Of a stretch of DNA of 20,070 bases, positions 74-5,995 are shown piece by piece. The stretch covers positions 1 through 20,070 of the IMG/VR virus record IMGVR_UViG_3300042376_000346; one strand, given 5' to 3'. Numbering within the stretch: position 1 is the first letter of the stretch; each line of letters starts with the position of its first letter. The notes under the pieces were generated by a model. That model saw only the letters and a program-made list of their open reading frames with translations, was not told the origin of the DNA and searched no databases. The stretch is from a virus. Position numbers and translations under genes: made by a program.

Positions 74-847
74 ATGACCGCTGCGGTTAAGTCCACGGCT
101 TTTGCTGCCGTCCCATACAAACTCATGGACGCCGGCATCGATTCAAAAGCCATCGTTGTTTATCTCTGGTTACACAGGTTCGGCTGGAACTCCCCGAAAG
201 GCTGCTACGCATCACTGCAAACAATCTCAGATCGTTCTGGTATCTCACGGAAGGTCGTTCAGCGGTCCTTGAGCACACTTGTAGAAACCGGCTGGCTGGA
301 GGTTGAACGCCGCCCTGGCACCAGTGCCGTGTACCACGTCGTCCTAGACCACCCAGGTCGAAAACGACCTAAGGTCAAAAACGACCCAGGTCAAAAACGA
401 CCTAGGGGTCAGGTCGAAAACGACCTAGCTACCCAGGTCGAAAACGACCTACAAACAAGAACCCATGAACAAGAACCCATAACAAGAACCCATGTAAAGC
501 TGGAAAACGAGTTTCCAGCAGCGTCTGACCAACCCGCGCCAAGGCGTAGAACCAAAGGCGATCCAGCCTTTGAGCAGTTCTGGAAAACGTACCTTTCAGC
601 CCCTGTACGCGCTGCCAGTCAGTCAAAGCCCAAAGCCCTTGGGCAGTGGCAGAAAACTCTCCGGACCGAAACCGTTGCCAGCTTGCTCGAAGCATTGGAA
701 ACTGAGATCAGCCATCAGCACCTCGCAGCGGGCACGTTCGTCAGCCCCTTGCCTGATTGCTTCCGCTGGCTACGCGACGAGCGTTACCTCACCGTCAACG
801 ACCGCCCCCTCAACACCACCAACTACATCCCCGATGTGATCCGATGA
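74..847 (+). CDS. Winged-helix replication-initiator-like protein (lambda O/DnaD-like role)
   Basis: Predicted 257 residues. Residues about 10-90 read as a winged helix-turn-helix, with a recognition-helix region around TISDRSGISRKVVQRSLSTL (50-69) followed by a turn and the GWLEVE wing strand. A low-complexity basic/polar linker (about 92-140) follows, then a C-terminal domain rich in Trp and Arg (FEQFWKTYL...). This layout, DNA-binding N-terminus plus linker plus C-terminal partner-binding domain, is that of phage replication initiators such as lambda O and DnaD-like proteins. The linker-coding DNA carries five iterons and three 13-bp repeats, which supports an origin-binding role. I prefer ATG at 74 because the winged helix begins right after it. 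An in-frame GTG at 29 would add 15 basic residues. The stop overlaps the next start as ATGA. Family is inferred from domain layout. Confidence 0.75.
   Translation: MTAAVKSTAFAAVPYKLMDAGIDSKAIVVYLWLHRFGWNSPKGCYASLQTISDRSGISRKVVQRSLSTLVETGWLEVERRPGTSAVYHVVLDHPGRKRPKVKNDPGQKRPRGQVENDLATQVENDLQTRTHEQEPITRTHVKLENEFPAASDQPAPRRRTKGDPAFEQFWKTYLSAPVRAASQSKPKALGQWQKTLRTETVASLLEALETEISHQHLAAGTFVSPLPDCFRWLRDERYLTVNDRPLNTTNYIPDVIR
355..450 (+). repeat. Five palindromic iterons, putative phage replication origin
   Basis: Five copies of a 16-bp unit, consensus AGGTCGAAAACGACCT, lie at 355-370, 372-387, 388-403, 411-426 and 435-450. Each is an inverted repeat of AGGTCG and CGACCT around AAAA; copies 2 and 3 have A for G at position 6 and copy 2 ends in C. 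Start-to-start steps are 17, 16, 23 and 24 bp, so the copies fall in two different codon phases of the host gene (read as RKRP or V(K/E)ND). Conservation of DNA across codon phases argues for a DNA function, most simply binding sites for the initiator encoded by the same gene, as in lambda ori inside gene O. Confidence 0.7.
454..493 (+). repeat. Three perfect 13-bp direct repeats next to the iterons
   Basis: AACAAGAACCCAT occurs at 454-466, 468-480 and 481-493, again in two codon phases. The block is A-rich on one strand and lies directly after the iteron cluster, the place where a duplex-unwinding element would sit in an iteron-type origin. The unwinding role is inference; the repeats are seen directly. 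Confidence 0.6.
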
Positions 848-2183: not shown

Positions 2184-2780
2184 ATGGTCACTGCACCAGA
2201 GTTCATCGACCAAACCCCCGTAACCAAACTCAAGCCATACGACAAAAACCCCCGCACTCATTCACCAGTTCAAATCGAACGCCTCGTAAATTCCTTCAAA
2301 GAGTTTGGGTTTACGAACCCAATTCTTGTTGATGACCAACTTAACATTATCGCTGGGCATGGTCGCCTGGAGGCAGCCAAAATCCTTGGGCTCAAAACGG
2401 TTCCAACCATCACTCTGTCTCATCTGACGCCACAGCAACGTCGCGCTTATGTCATTGCAGACAATCAGCTTGCCCTCAACTCAGGCTGGGATGACAACCT
2501 CTTGCAATCAGAACTGCAGGCGCTGGGTGAACTTGGTTTTGATCTTACTGTTCTTGGCTGGGGCGAAGATCTTCCTACCTTTGGAGAAGACATTGACCTG
2601 TCTGCCTTGGAAGATGATGAAGATGACTTGTCTGAATTTGCAGCAGGCGTGCGTAAAGCAATACAAATTGACTTCGAACCAGAAGACTATGAAGAAGCCC
2701 AAGCACTTGTTGCTCAGGCTCGTAAAAATGGTGAATATGTTGGCATGATGCTGATTAACGCCCTGAAGGATGCAGCATGA
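2184..2780 (+). CDS. ParB/Srx-like nuclease-fold protein of a DNA modification cassette
   Basis: 198 residues. The N-terminal half is a ParB N-terminal (sulfiredoxin-fold) domain: NPRTHS (22-27), GFTNPILVD (42-50), then the signature IIAGHGRLEAAKILGL (55-70), and IADNQLALNSGWD (91-103). Phage proteins with this domain often sit beside DNA methyltransferases and DNA-modification enzymes and can have ATPase or nuclease activity. No partition-type helix-turn-helix follows, so chromosome partitioning is unlikely. An acidic linker (LEDDEDDLSEF, 142-152) leads to a C-terminal helical part. The stop overlaps the start of the glycosyltransferase gene (ATGA), tying it to the TAGT-TET pair. Exact activity unknown; a DNA-targeting or accessory role is inferred. 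Confidence 0.8.
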   Translation: MVTAPEFIDQTPVTKLKPYDKNPRTHSPVQIERLVNSFKEFGFTNPILVDDQLNIIAGHGRLEAAKILGLKTVPTITLSHLTPQQRRAYVIADNQLALNSGWDDNLLQSELQALGELGFDLTVLGWGEDLPTFGEDIDLSALEDDEDDLSEFAAGVRKAIQIDFEPEDYEEAQALVAQARKNGEYVGMMLINALKDAA

Positions 2781-3535
2781 CAACAACTGTCTACATACCG
2801 TCCAAAGGCAGACCAACCACCAAAACACACATCCTGTTCGCAGGGCATGATTTCAACATCATCCACGTTGTTGAACCACAAGACCGTACTGCTTATCAAA
2901 ATGCCAGCGTCCCAAACCTTTTGACATTGCCTGATAACAATCAGGGCATTGCCTACGTTCGTAATTTCATCATAGATCACGCCAAATCCACTGCCGCACA
3001 ATGGATTTGGATGATAGATGATGATGTCCAAGGCTTTGGCTATGCCAAGCAAGGCAAAACTATTAAAGATACAGCCAAAATACTTTCAGATTTCCATTCA
3101 AGGGTTGAGCAATACCGTTTCCCGCTTAATGGCATCAATTATTGTCAATACGCTTGGTCTTACTCAACTGGCAAAATACGCTATCAAATCAATAAAAAAA
3201 CAGCGGAAGTCTGCACATTGCTCTACATACCAAAAATCACCTGGCAGTATCGCGCAAGGTTAAACCTCAAAGAGGATCGTGATTTTTGTATGCAAGCTAT
3301 CAAACATTCCGATGGCATCATCATTGATACACACTCATGGTTCGCTTGCCCAGGTGTCGGCACAAATGCCGGGGGCTTGCAAAGCCTTTACCAACAACAA
3401 CGCGACCACGAAGCAGCCGCAAAACTTGCCGCAGAATGGGCTCCATACACTAAACTCATCAAGAAAAAAGATCGTATTGACTGCAAACTAGATATTTCCG
3501 CTTACGCTAAATCTCTTGATCGCATCGTCCGCTAA
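2777..3535 (+). CDS. TET-associated glycosyltransferase (TAGT/GREB1-like), DNA base glycosylation
   Basis: 252 residues. The N-terminus TVYIPSKGR (4-12) is the first strand and loop of a GT-A nucleotide-sugar-binding fold. IHVVEPQDRTAY (29-40) and the turn LPDNNQGIAYVRN (51-63) follow, then WIWMIDDDV (77-84) with the DDD metal-binding motif, and later LKEDRDF (164-170). This order (SxGR, GIxxxRN, WMIDDD, EDxDF) is what I recall for the TET/JBP-associated glycosyltransferases found in phages and in eukaryotic GREB1. These are thought to add a sugar to hydroxymethylated bases in DNA. The coupled dioxygenase gene starts on this gene's stop (TAATG), which strongly supports the role. Donor sugar and anomer cannot be read from sequence. 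Coding DNA looks AT-richer than neighbouring structural genes. Confidence 0.78.
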   Translation: MTTTVYIPSKGRPTTKTHILFAGHDFNIIHVVEPQDRTAYQNASVPNLLTLPDNNQGIAYVRNFIIDHAKSTAAQWIWMIDDDVQGFGYAKQGKTIKDTAKILSDFHSRVEQYRFPLNGINYCQYAWSYSTGKIRYQINKKTAEVCTLLYIPKITWQYRARLNLKEDRDFCMQAIKHSDGIIIDTHSWFACPGVGTNAGGLQSLYQQQRDHEAAAKLAAEWAPYTKLIKKKDRIDCKLDISAYAKSLDRIVR

Positions 3536-4335
3536 TGGAAAAACTTCAGTCCATAATCCTTAACCCAATCAAACACAACATCAAAATTGGTGATACTTGT
3601 CCAACACAGCCAGCCACCATTACCGAATCCTGCATCCTTCTTGATCCTGATGGGAGTCAAGTAGGACTTTTCCTAAAAGAACTGCCGTCAGACCTACAAA
3701 ATCTTGTCAACATCGCAGACGCTGAAGTCCGCTCAGATCGTGTTCCCAAAACCATGATGGATCGTAAACGCCCTTTGCCTCCTGGTCCTGATGGTAAGAG
3801 ACGTTACCTTGTTGTTTCTCAATATTCCGCCATCCTTGGCAGTGTGCCACCTAAGCCACATATGCGCAGACCATATGCCTCACGCTCATCGGTTCATTCC
3901 AAACCAACAGCATCAACATTTGTCCGCGCCATGCTTAAAGCAGGCAAACTCGCCATGGGCTTGGTCGCTCACTACATCCCAGACGTACATGCCAAACACC
4001 TTGCCGTTATCCAAAAACGTGTTCCTGAACCTTGGCGCTTCACTCCATATTTCTCCTCCACAATCTCAAATTGCAATATTGCAGCACCAATCCATCAAGA
4101 TAATGCCAATGTCAAAGGCGCAATAAATCTCATCATCACAAAACGGCAAAACTCCACAGGTGGCAATCTTTATGTGCCTGATTACAATGCCGCCTTCGAT
4201 CAAACTAATAATTCACTTCTTGTCTACCCTGCATGGAGAAACATGCACGGTGTAACCCCAATCATTCCCACTCATCCTGGTGGTTACCGCAATTCCCATG
4301 TTTGGTATGCCTTAGACTCCTTTGCAAATCTGTAA
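3535..4335 (+). CDS. TET/JBP-family 2-oxoglutarate/Fe(II) dioxygenase, DNA base hydroxylase
   Basis: 266 residues. The C-terminal half is a double-stranded beta-helix dioxygenase core: IHQDNAN (186-192) gives the iron ligands H187 and D189 plus the N192 of the HxDxxN form typical of TET/JBP enzymes. It continues with KGAINLIITKR, the TGGNLYVPDYNAAF strand region (208-221), the distal iron ligand H238 in RNMHGVTPI, and R252 in GYRNSHVWYAL as the likely 2-oxoglutarate carboxylate binder. Spacing (HxD to H about 50 residues, then 14 to Arg) resembles trypanosome JBP. Phage TETs oxidise 5-methylcytosine, JBPs oxidise thymine; both yield a hydroxymethyl group for further decoration. The start codon overlaps the glycosyltransferase stop. 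The N-terminal 130 residues have no motif I recognise and may help bind DNA. Confidence 0.82.
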   Translation: MEKLQSIILNPIKHNIKIGDTCPTQPATITESCILLDPDGSQVGLFLKELPSDLQNLVNIADAEVRSDRVPKTMMDRKRPLPPGPDGKRRYLVVSQYSAILGSVPPKPHMRRPYASRSSVHSKPTASTFVRAMLKAGKLAMGLVAHYIPDVHAKHLAVIQKRVPEPWRFTPYFSSTISNCNIAAPIHQDNANVKGAINLIITKRQNSTGGNLYVPDYNAAFDQTNNSLLVYPAWRNMHGVTPIIPTHPGGYRNSHVWYALDSFANL

Positions 4336-4343
4336 CACATATC

Positions 4344-4670
4344 ATGGCTGGTCAGACGCGCTGCACAGCAGCAGAAAAAATGTTCCGCACCATGCGCGTA
4401 GCACGCATGATTGCCAATGGTGCTACACGGTCAGATCTCCTGCAATACGGCGCACAAGAATGGGGACTCAGCACCCGCCAGGTGGACGAATACCGTGCTG
4501 CTGCAATGAAGGAATTGGAAGCCGACTGGAACCTTGACCGGCAAGCATATGCTGCTGTGCTCTTATCGCAACTCAATATTGTCCATAAAAAATCAATGGA
4601 AGGCGGAAATCTTGCGGTCACACTTGGCTGCATCAACACCGCCGCCAAGATTGCCAAAATCCTTGATTGA
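4344..4670 (+). CDS. terS: Terminase small subunit-like DNA-packaging protein
   Basis: 108 residues, directly upstream of and overlapping the large terminase gene (TGATG). Start chosen at ATG 4344 after the dioxygenase stop; the open frame upstream to 4233 is the dioxygenase gene read out of phase. Residues about 12-55 (MFRTMRVARMIANGATRSDL then WGLSTRQVDEYRAAAMKEL) look like a helix-turn-helix that would recognise the packaging start site. The second half is helical (YAAVLLSQLNIVHKKSMEGG and LGCINTAAKIAKIL), as in the oligomerisation region of small terminases. The assignment rests on helix-turn-helix character, size and position. If the genome is hypermodified upstream, this protein must recognise modified DNA. 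Confidence 0.75.
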   Translation: MAGQTRCTAAEKMFRTMRVARMIANGATRSDLLQYGAQEWGLSTRQVDEYRAAAMKELEADWNLDRQAYAAVLLSQLNIVHKKSMEGGNLAVTLGCINTAAKIAKILD

Positions 4671-5995
4671 TGGGTTTCCTCAGCTCAGTACCTCGTGGTT
4701 CTGTACTTTCGCCAATCATTGAGGCGCCAGAGGATGCACAACTGGCGATGAGATCCGTAGGGCACGCTTTGTATGACACACTGACCAAGCCGCAGCGCAC
4801 TGTCTACGATTCTCCCGAGCGTTTTAAGATGCTCTGCTCAGGGCGCCGTTTTGGCAAGACTTACCTGTGTGTTGCTCGGTTAATCAACTGGGCGACGGAA
4901 AAACCAAACAGCCTGAACTGGTACGTCACGGCTAACTACCGCATGGCTAAACAAATTGCTTGGCGGCAGCTCAAAACTATGGTGCCGCCGGAGATTTGCG
5001 TTAAACGGAACGAATCTGAACTTAGCGTCGAGCTTACCAATGGCAGCATCATTGCGTTGAAAGGCGCAGAAAATCCTGACACCTTGCGTGGCGTCAGCCT
5101 TTCGACCTTGATTGTTGATGAAGCCGCGTATGTCAAGCAAGACGCGTGGGAAATGGTTTTACGTCCGGCGCTCTCAGATCAAGGTGGTCCGGCATGGTTT
5201 ATCACGACACCTGCAGGGCTCAACTGGTTTCATGACTTATGGGAGCAAGCTCAAGAGGAAAATGACTGGCAAACCTTTTCGTACAGCACGATTCAAGGCG
5301 GCAACGTACCGGCAGAAGAAGTCGAAGCGGCAAGGCGCACGCTAGACGAGCGCACATTTCGCCAAGAATATCTTGCATCCTTTGAAACCTTGTCTGGCAG
5401 GGTTTATCCAGATTTCAGTGATGACAATATTTCTGAGACCGTTCAAGACACCGGAGCAGAAATCTACTGGGGCACTGATTTCAACGTCAGTGTCATGGCG
5501 GGTGTTCTTGGCAGCAGAGTGGGTGACACGCTGCACATTTGGGATGAGGTATCTGTCAACCAGTCCAACACCGATGAAGTTTGCCAACTTCTGAAAGCAC
5601 GCTTCCCAGATCGTCGCATCATTGCTTATCCAGACCCGACTGGTTCAGCACGCAAAACCAGTTCTGCCGGGAAAACCGACCACGACATCATCAGGCGTTA
5701 CGGTTTCAACTGCGTTAGCCCCAAAGCGCCGTGGGCAGTGAAGGACAAGATCAACGCCACCAACTGGATGATCCGCACTGCTGATGGGCACCTAAAACTA
5801 TTTGTGCATCCGCGCTGCAAGCACACCATCAAAGCACTGAAAAACGTGACCTATAAGCAGGGTGCCGACGATTACGTCATCGACAAAACAGCAGGCATTG
5901 AACACTGGACTGATGGACTGGGTTACTTGGTTCTGGGGGCGTTCAACCCGCTTTACGAAAGGGCTGGCAAGGGGACCGGGATCAGGGTATATTGA
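4670..5995 (+). CDS. terL: Terminase large subunit (packaging ATPase-nuclease)
   Basis: 441 residues from ATG 4670; a TTG one codon earlier is also in frame but the ATG overlaps the small subunit stop neatly. ATPase domain: Walker A GRRFGKT (58-64), Walker B TLIVDEAAY (146-154) with D150 and catalytic E151, and the coupling motif ITTPAG (178-183). Nuclease domain: GTDFNV with D270 as a probable metal ligand, then YPDPTGS in the RNase H-like fold and further acidic residues towards the C-terminus (HWTDGLGY). The enzyme docks on the portal, cuts concatemeric DNA and pumps it into the prohead. Length is normal for a phage TerL. Confidence 0.95.
   Translation: MGFLSSVPRGSVLSPIIEAPEDAQLAMRSVGHALYDTLTKPQRTVYDSPERFKMLCSGRRFGKTYLCVARLINWATEKPNSLNWYVTANYRMAKQIAWRQLKTMVPPEICVKRNESELSVELTNGSIIALKGAENPDTLRGVSLSTLIVDEAAYVKQDAWEMVLRPALSDQGGPAWFITTPAGLNWFHDLWEQAQEENDWQTFSYSTIQGGNVPAEEVEAARRTLDERTFRQEYLASFETLSGRVYPDFSDDNISETVQDTGAEIYWGTDFNVSVMAGVLGSRVGDTLHIWDEVSVNQSNTDEVCQLLKARFPDRRIIAYPDPTGSARKTSSAGKTDHDIIRRYGFNCVSPKAPWAVKDKINATNWMIRTADGHLKLFVHPRCKHTIKALKNVTYKQGADDYVIDKTAGIEHWTDGLGYLVLGAFNPLYERAGKGTGIRVY

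Follow-up and report, generated by a model that had tools for sequence, protein, structure and literature searches.

A probable lambda-type replication origin inside the initiator gene of a likely cyanobacterial phage

The initiator gene and its DNA elements

The virus record IMGVR_UViG_3300042376_000346, a stretch of 20,070 bases analysed at its full length (hereafter the window), has as its first gene a plus-strand reading frame (74-847) that encodes a protein of 257 amino acids and harbours an array of repeated DNA dyads (iterons), an A-rich block and an inverted repeat. Judging by its sequence profiles, the product is a winged-helix replication initiator: it matches the Pfam family PF13730 (HTH_36) with 38.9 bits (cut-off 25), as well as three PHROG families of phage replication initiation proteins (PHROG_270, PHROG_391 and PHROG_678), the best being phrog_270 'replication initiation protein' (1.3e-22), and thus falls by profile match among the HTH_36/PHROG_270 phage replication initiators.

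The structure model is confident for a winged helix and for a set of C-terminal helices, which are joined by a disordered linker. The N-terminal winged-helix domain comprises residues 1-93 (74-352), including the predicted recognition helix (residues 59-72, 248-289), while the disordered residues 94-159 correspond to 353-550 and span the constrained DNA block described below. The conserved helical C-terminal domain (563-778), recognised from model helices and from invariant alignment columns (FxxFWxxY..SQSKPKA..W..PDCFRWLRD), is likely the replisome-recruiting part, as we infer it. A fold search of solved structures returned generic winged helices only, the nearest of MarR/ArsR type, with no match at E<=0.001, and a sequence search of solved structures gave no significant match. 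No relatives were confirmed in the cellular genome contigs searched.

The iteron array (355-450, plus strand) consists of five near-identical 16-bp dyads: AGGTCGAAAACGACCT at 355-370, AGGTCAAAAACGACCC at 372-387, AGGTCAAAAACGACCT at 388-403, and AGGTCGAAAACGACCT again at 411-426 and 435-450. Three of the five are therefore exactly AGGTCGAAAACGACCT, from which the third differs by one base change and the second by two, and the spacing between successive units is 17, 16, 23 and 24 bp. Translation gives PGRKRP/PGQKRP for units 1 and 3, and KVKNDP/QVENDL for units 2, 4 and 5; since the units encode different peptides, the same DNA has been kept in two codon phases. With one mismatch allowed, the 15-mer core of the units matches nowhere else in the window, and with up to three mismatches it matches nine times, against a shuffle mean of 1.35. 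None of 20,000 synonymous recodings of the protein contained more than two units, compared with five in the real gene. An origin of the array by chance or as a peptide repeat is ruled out by this recoding and by the multiple codon phases.

Immediately 3' of the iterons lies an A-rich, T-poor block (452-498, plus strand) built on three direct repeats of AACAAGAACCCAT (454-467, 468-481 and 481-494). These 47 bp have 62% A+T in a window of 47% A+T and hold the least stable 45-bp stretch of the gene; in three relatives (L024, L033 and L062) nothing in the entire fetched locus is less stable than this block. It is likely a DNA-unwinding element. Past it comes an inverted repeat, GCTGGAAA-ACGAG-TTTCCAGC (499-519, plus strand), whose DNA fold has a z of -3.6 and which is present at the corresponding site in all three classes of relatives defined below. 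All eight pairs are formed in 33/33 sequences (14 distinct), and three of the pairs show changes on both arms. A dyad-iteron array within the initiator gene, an easily melted A+T-rich block 3' of it and an inverted repeat beyond, three sequence elements expected of a lambda-type origin, are thus all found here.

Selection acts on the DNA

Synonymous codon differences were computed among 15 class I representatives with less than 95% identity, class I being the relatives that share the iteron type of the window. The rate was 0.565 in the winged-helix part of the gene, 0.054 in the iterons, 0.048 in the A-rich block (452-496) and 0.179 in the palindrome (497-523), returning to 0.579 in the spacer that follows. 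The constrained DNA accordingly extends from about 353 to 523, and the roughly ten-fold synonymous drop over the array shows selection on the DNA directly. Classes II and III, analysed separately, displayed the same drop over their own iterons, A-rich block and palindrome.

These results bear out much of what a sequence-only reading of the window had claimed, namely that five units (at 355, 372, 388, 411 and 435) keep their DNA sequence in two codon phases, that selection acts on the DNA, and that a winged-helix gene holds them exactly at its linker, as the HTH_36 and PHROG matches and the disorder of residues 94-159 indicate; relatives go further and use all three phases. That reading had also held that related phages with the same protein but no repeats would speak against it, and all relatives with the same winged-helix type keep the repeats. 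The extent it gave was right for the array at 355-450 and too short for the element, since it missed the conserved DNA that continues to 523 with the triple direct repeat of the A-rich block and the covarying inverted repeat.

Relatives carry different iterons with similar C-terminal domains

A scan of viral contigs yielded 79 loci, from 100% to 28% identity, and relatives were grouped by linker sequence. Class I comprises 30 loci (L002-L031) with the iteron type of the window; every member has five or six units, and the spacing is 17,16,23,24 or 16,16,16,23,24 in 27 of 31 sequences. When 12 class I records were searched in full, the pattern occurred five times in each, on one strand and in the initiator gene only (12/12). 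Class II (L032-L043) has units of the type GGAGC-AAAAAT-GCTCC, with some GGTC half-sites remaining, the dyads of class III (L045-L058) are longer, for instance CCTACTG-GGTGT-CAGTAGG, and two further loci (L062 and L063) have GGTACC-AAAA-GGTACC units. In class III, at 5418-5437 of L045 and at the corresponding site elsewhere, a second inverted repeat, GGTATTTC-tgac-GAAATACC, precedes the main palindrome; it is altered on both arms in L056/L057, where it reads GGATATTTC-ttac-GAAATATCC.

Winged-helix domains and iterons of classes II and III are both unlike those of class I, whereas the C-terminal domain is similar: between classes I and III the mean identity is 30% in the N-terminal part and 70%, reaching 87%, in the C-terminal part. 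Such N-terminal divergence alongside C-terminal similarity indicates that the recognition domain and the iterons move together onto a similar C-terminal domain. At position 59, where the predicted recognition helix begins, class I proteins carry R, and class II proteins without exception carry E.

A homologous gene of the cultured cyanophage KBS-S-2A has a similar layout when read by eye, with repeated CCCCCAAAAGGTGG units, an A-rich stretch and GGCGC-AA-GCGCC. Some other relatives (L065, L066, L068, L070-L072, L075 and L076) share the C-terminal domain and have another N-terminal region that, also by eye, resembles a ribbon-helix-helix; L066 has no Pfam match. Synonymous change is low ahead of the C-terminal domain in these ribbon-helix-helix-like relatives too. 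At the thresholds used, a search for repeats in four loci whose N-terminal domain is different (L065, L066 and L072 of this group, and L069) found none.

A replication origin and its alternatives

We conclude that 355-519 is very probably the replication origin of the phage, placed within its own initiator gene and of lambda type, in which the N-terminal domain would bind the iterons, open the A-rich block and recruit the host replisome. Binding, melting and recruitment are proposed by analogy with lambda and SPP1. The winged-helix domain would occupy the five iterons as dimers, wrapping or bending the DNA, the bound array would melt the adjoining A-rich block, and the C-terminal domain would bring in the host replicative helicase, either directly or via a host loader. 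The inverted repeat probably acts after strand opening, setting the position of loading or priming either by forming a hairpin or by serving as a dimer site; this hairpin role is the least certain step of the mechanism. Searches for DnaB, DnaC/IstB (PF01695), PolA and lambda P (PF06992) found none of them in eight long records (seven long relatives and MED4-184), where a loader of unrecognised type may be present. The phage therefore probably uses the helicase and polymerase of its host. One of the long relatives, G004, has SSB, a RusA-like resolvase and an annealing-like protein.

Several observations weigh against an origin at this site. Cumulative GC skew does not single out the site as a classical origin: in five of the seven long records (G004, G005, G006, G013 and G014) it reaches a maximum, not a minimum, some 1.1-1.2 kb ahead of the initiator gene on its upstream side, near a change in gene direction; because this turning point has the wrong sign and coincides with the flip in gene direction, we regard the skew as uninformative on the origin. 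The shared inheritance of N-terminal domain and iterons could be a matter of linkage alone, as they are neighbours in the DNA. Lastly, the RNA from 345-530 forms a far stronger fold than shuffled versions of it (z -7.1), so that a role at the RNA level is possible.

Different functions might explain a conserved array at this position. The array might be an operator, bound by the winged-helix protein to repress transcription of its own gene or to set the timing of that transcription, with the origin elsewhere. The MarR/ArsR type of the nearest solved structures would suit such a role, and sites within the gene itself could form a roadblock. Yet the array lies mid-gene with no sigma-70-like promoter seen nearby (host promoters may differ), the protein matches initiators and not repressors, and the constrained A-rich block and covarying palindrome are left unexplained; we consider an operator quite unlikely. 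Conservation might instead serve hairpins in the mRNA, controlling translation or stability, and here the strong RNA fold and the covariation of the downstream inverted repeat are favourable. Against this, 79 of 163 class I iteron units have a mismatch (A.C) at the sixth pair, whereas the central A residues of class I iterons, which do not pair, show little or no variation. There are essentially no G-U changes, and constraint on the A-rich block, likewise unpaired, equals that on the iterons. Broken pairs, invariant unpaired A residues and a constrained A-rich block argue that the sequence is kept and not just the pairing, which makes RNA hairpins a very unlikely account. A centromere-like partition site bound by a protein of AspA or TubR type is hardly credible: AspA and TubR, which bind centromeres through a winged helix, rank near the top of the fold search and a ParB-like gene lies at 2184-2780, but the fold match spans the winged helix only and is not significant (none at E<=0.001), the ParB-like gene also matches the DNA methyltransferase family phrog_498, and the C-terminal domain and PHROG assignment fit replication initiators.

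Comparison with known systems

In lambda (L084), the iterons (435-519) are followed by a 43-bp A+T-rich stretch and by an inverted repeat, GTCAGAG-14-CTCTGAC, at 563-590. This inverted repeat is known as the ori palindrome; the literature searched made no mention of it. Iterons, A-rich gap and inverted repeat measure 85, 43 and 28 bp in lambda and 98, 47 and 21 bp in the window, in the same order. The two have in common iterons that are 16-18 bp dyads centred on an A-tract, an A-rich block of low stability and an inverted repeat, all in the same direction in the initiator gene (PMC3349717, PMC5043065), and lambda O is known to open the neighbouring 40-bp A+T-rich region (PMC5043065). They differ in iteron sequence, in number (five or six units against four) and in the shorter palindrome spacer of the window, and no gene for the helicase loader P was found. 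The window protein has no match at E<=1 to the Pfam family PF04492 (Phage_rep_O), which recognises lambda O itself with 5.7e-36; only the winged helix aligns with that of lambda O, and weakly (hhalign E 0.006, probability 6%), and the two proteins share PHROGs 391 and 678. The lambda O/ori design put forward by the sequence-only reading thus stands as an analogy of layout, a fuller one with the A-rich block and palindrome added, and falls as membership of the protein family, while its expectation of iterons other than those of lambda proved correct in both sequence and number.

SPP1 provides a second parallel, since its origin-binding protein gp38 has its own binding repeats and an A+T-rich unwinding element inside gene 38 (oriL; PMC6316719). 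The likeness is drawn from its published description. SPP1 encodes its own loader and a DnaB-type helicase and has a second origin, whereas in the eight long records neither a DnaB nor a DnaC-like loader could be recognised. The origins of iteron plasmids (P1, F and RK2) likewise combine an array of initiator sites with an adjoining A+T-rich unwinding region; the units of the window differ in being dyads, spaced at 16, 17, 23 and 24 bp, and in lying inside the gene. An origin within the initiator gene is thus an arrangement already known from lambda and SPP1, to which the window would add a further case. PHROG_270, PHROG_391 and PHROG_678 are mainly a sequence grouping; the literature searched describes no origin for this cyanophage branch, nor did it yield one for the cultured relatives KBS-S-2A and MED4-184.

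Host and neighbouring genes

The nearest cultured matches of the initiator gene include cyanophages, and the terminase large subunit (4667-5995) is closest to that of cyanophage S-2L (52% identity), followed by those of many Vibrio phages. Taken together, the cyanophage and S-2L matches make a cyanobacterial host likely. At 2184-4335, the ParB-like gene is followed in a row by a TET-associated glycosyltransferase (PF20691, 5.5e-17) and by a product that weakly matches Tet/JBP oxygenases, the three possibly forming a cassette for DNA base hypermodification. In the early region of a relative (L089, 4891-5814, minus strand) we noted an RNA polymerase sigma factor-like protein (phrog_351, 5e-67).

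Implications

A wider proposal, possible though rather doubtful, is that these phages form a natural series of exchangeable origin cassettes, in which a winged helix and its iterons are exchanged together and joined to a C-terminal domain and palindrome that stay similar, the C-terminal domain engages the cyanobacterial helicase without a phage loader, and residue 59 (R in class I, E in class II) is a main determinant of whether GGTC or GAGC half-sites are read. Swapped pairs of domain and iterons would offer a ready series for assigning residues to iterons, in which the matching is testable, and short cassette fragments could serve as replicons for cyanobacterial vectors. If the proposal of an origin here is true, a branch of small phages, probably of cyanobacteria, gains a candidate site for the start of replication. 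The gene keeps the lambda layout, palindrome included, with a protein outside Pfam's lambda O model, and the covariation of the inverted repeat is evidence for a function of the palindrome in origins of this kind.
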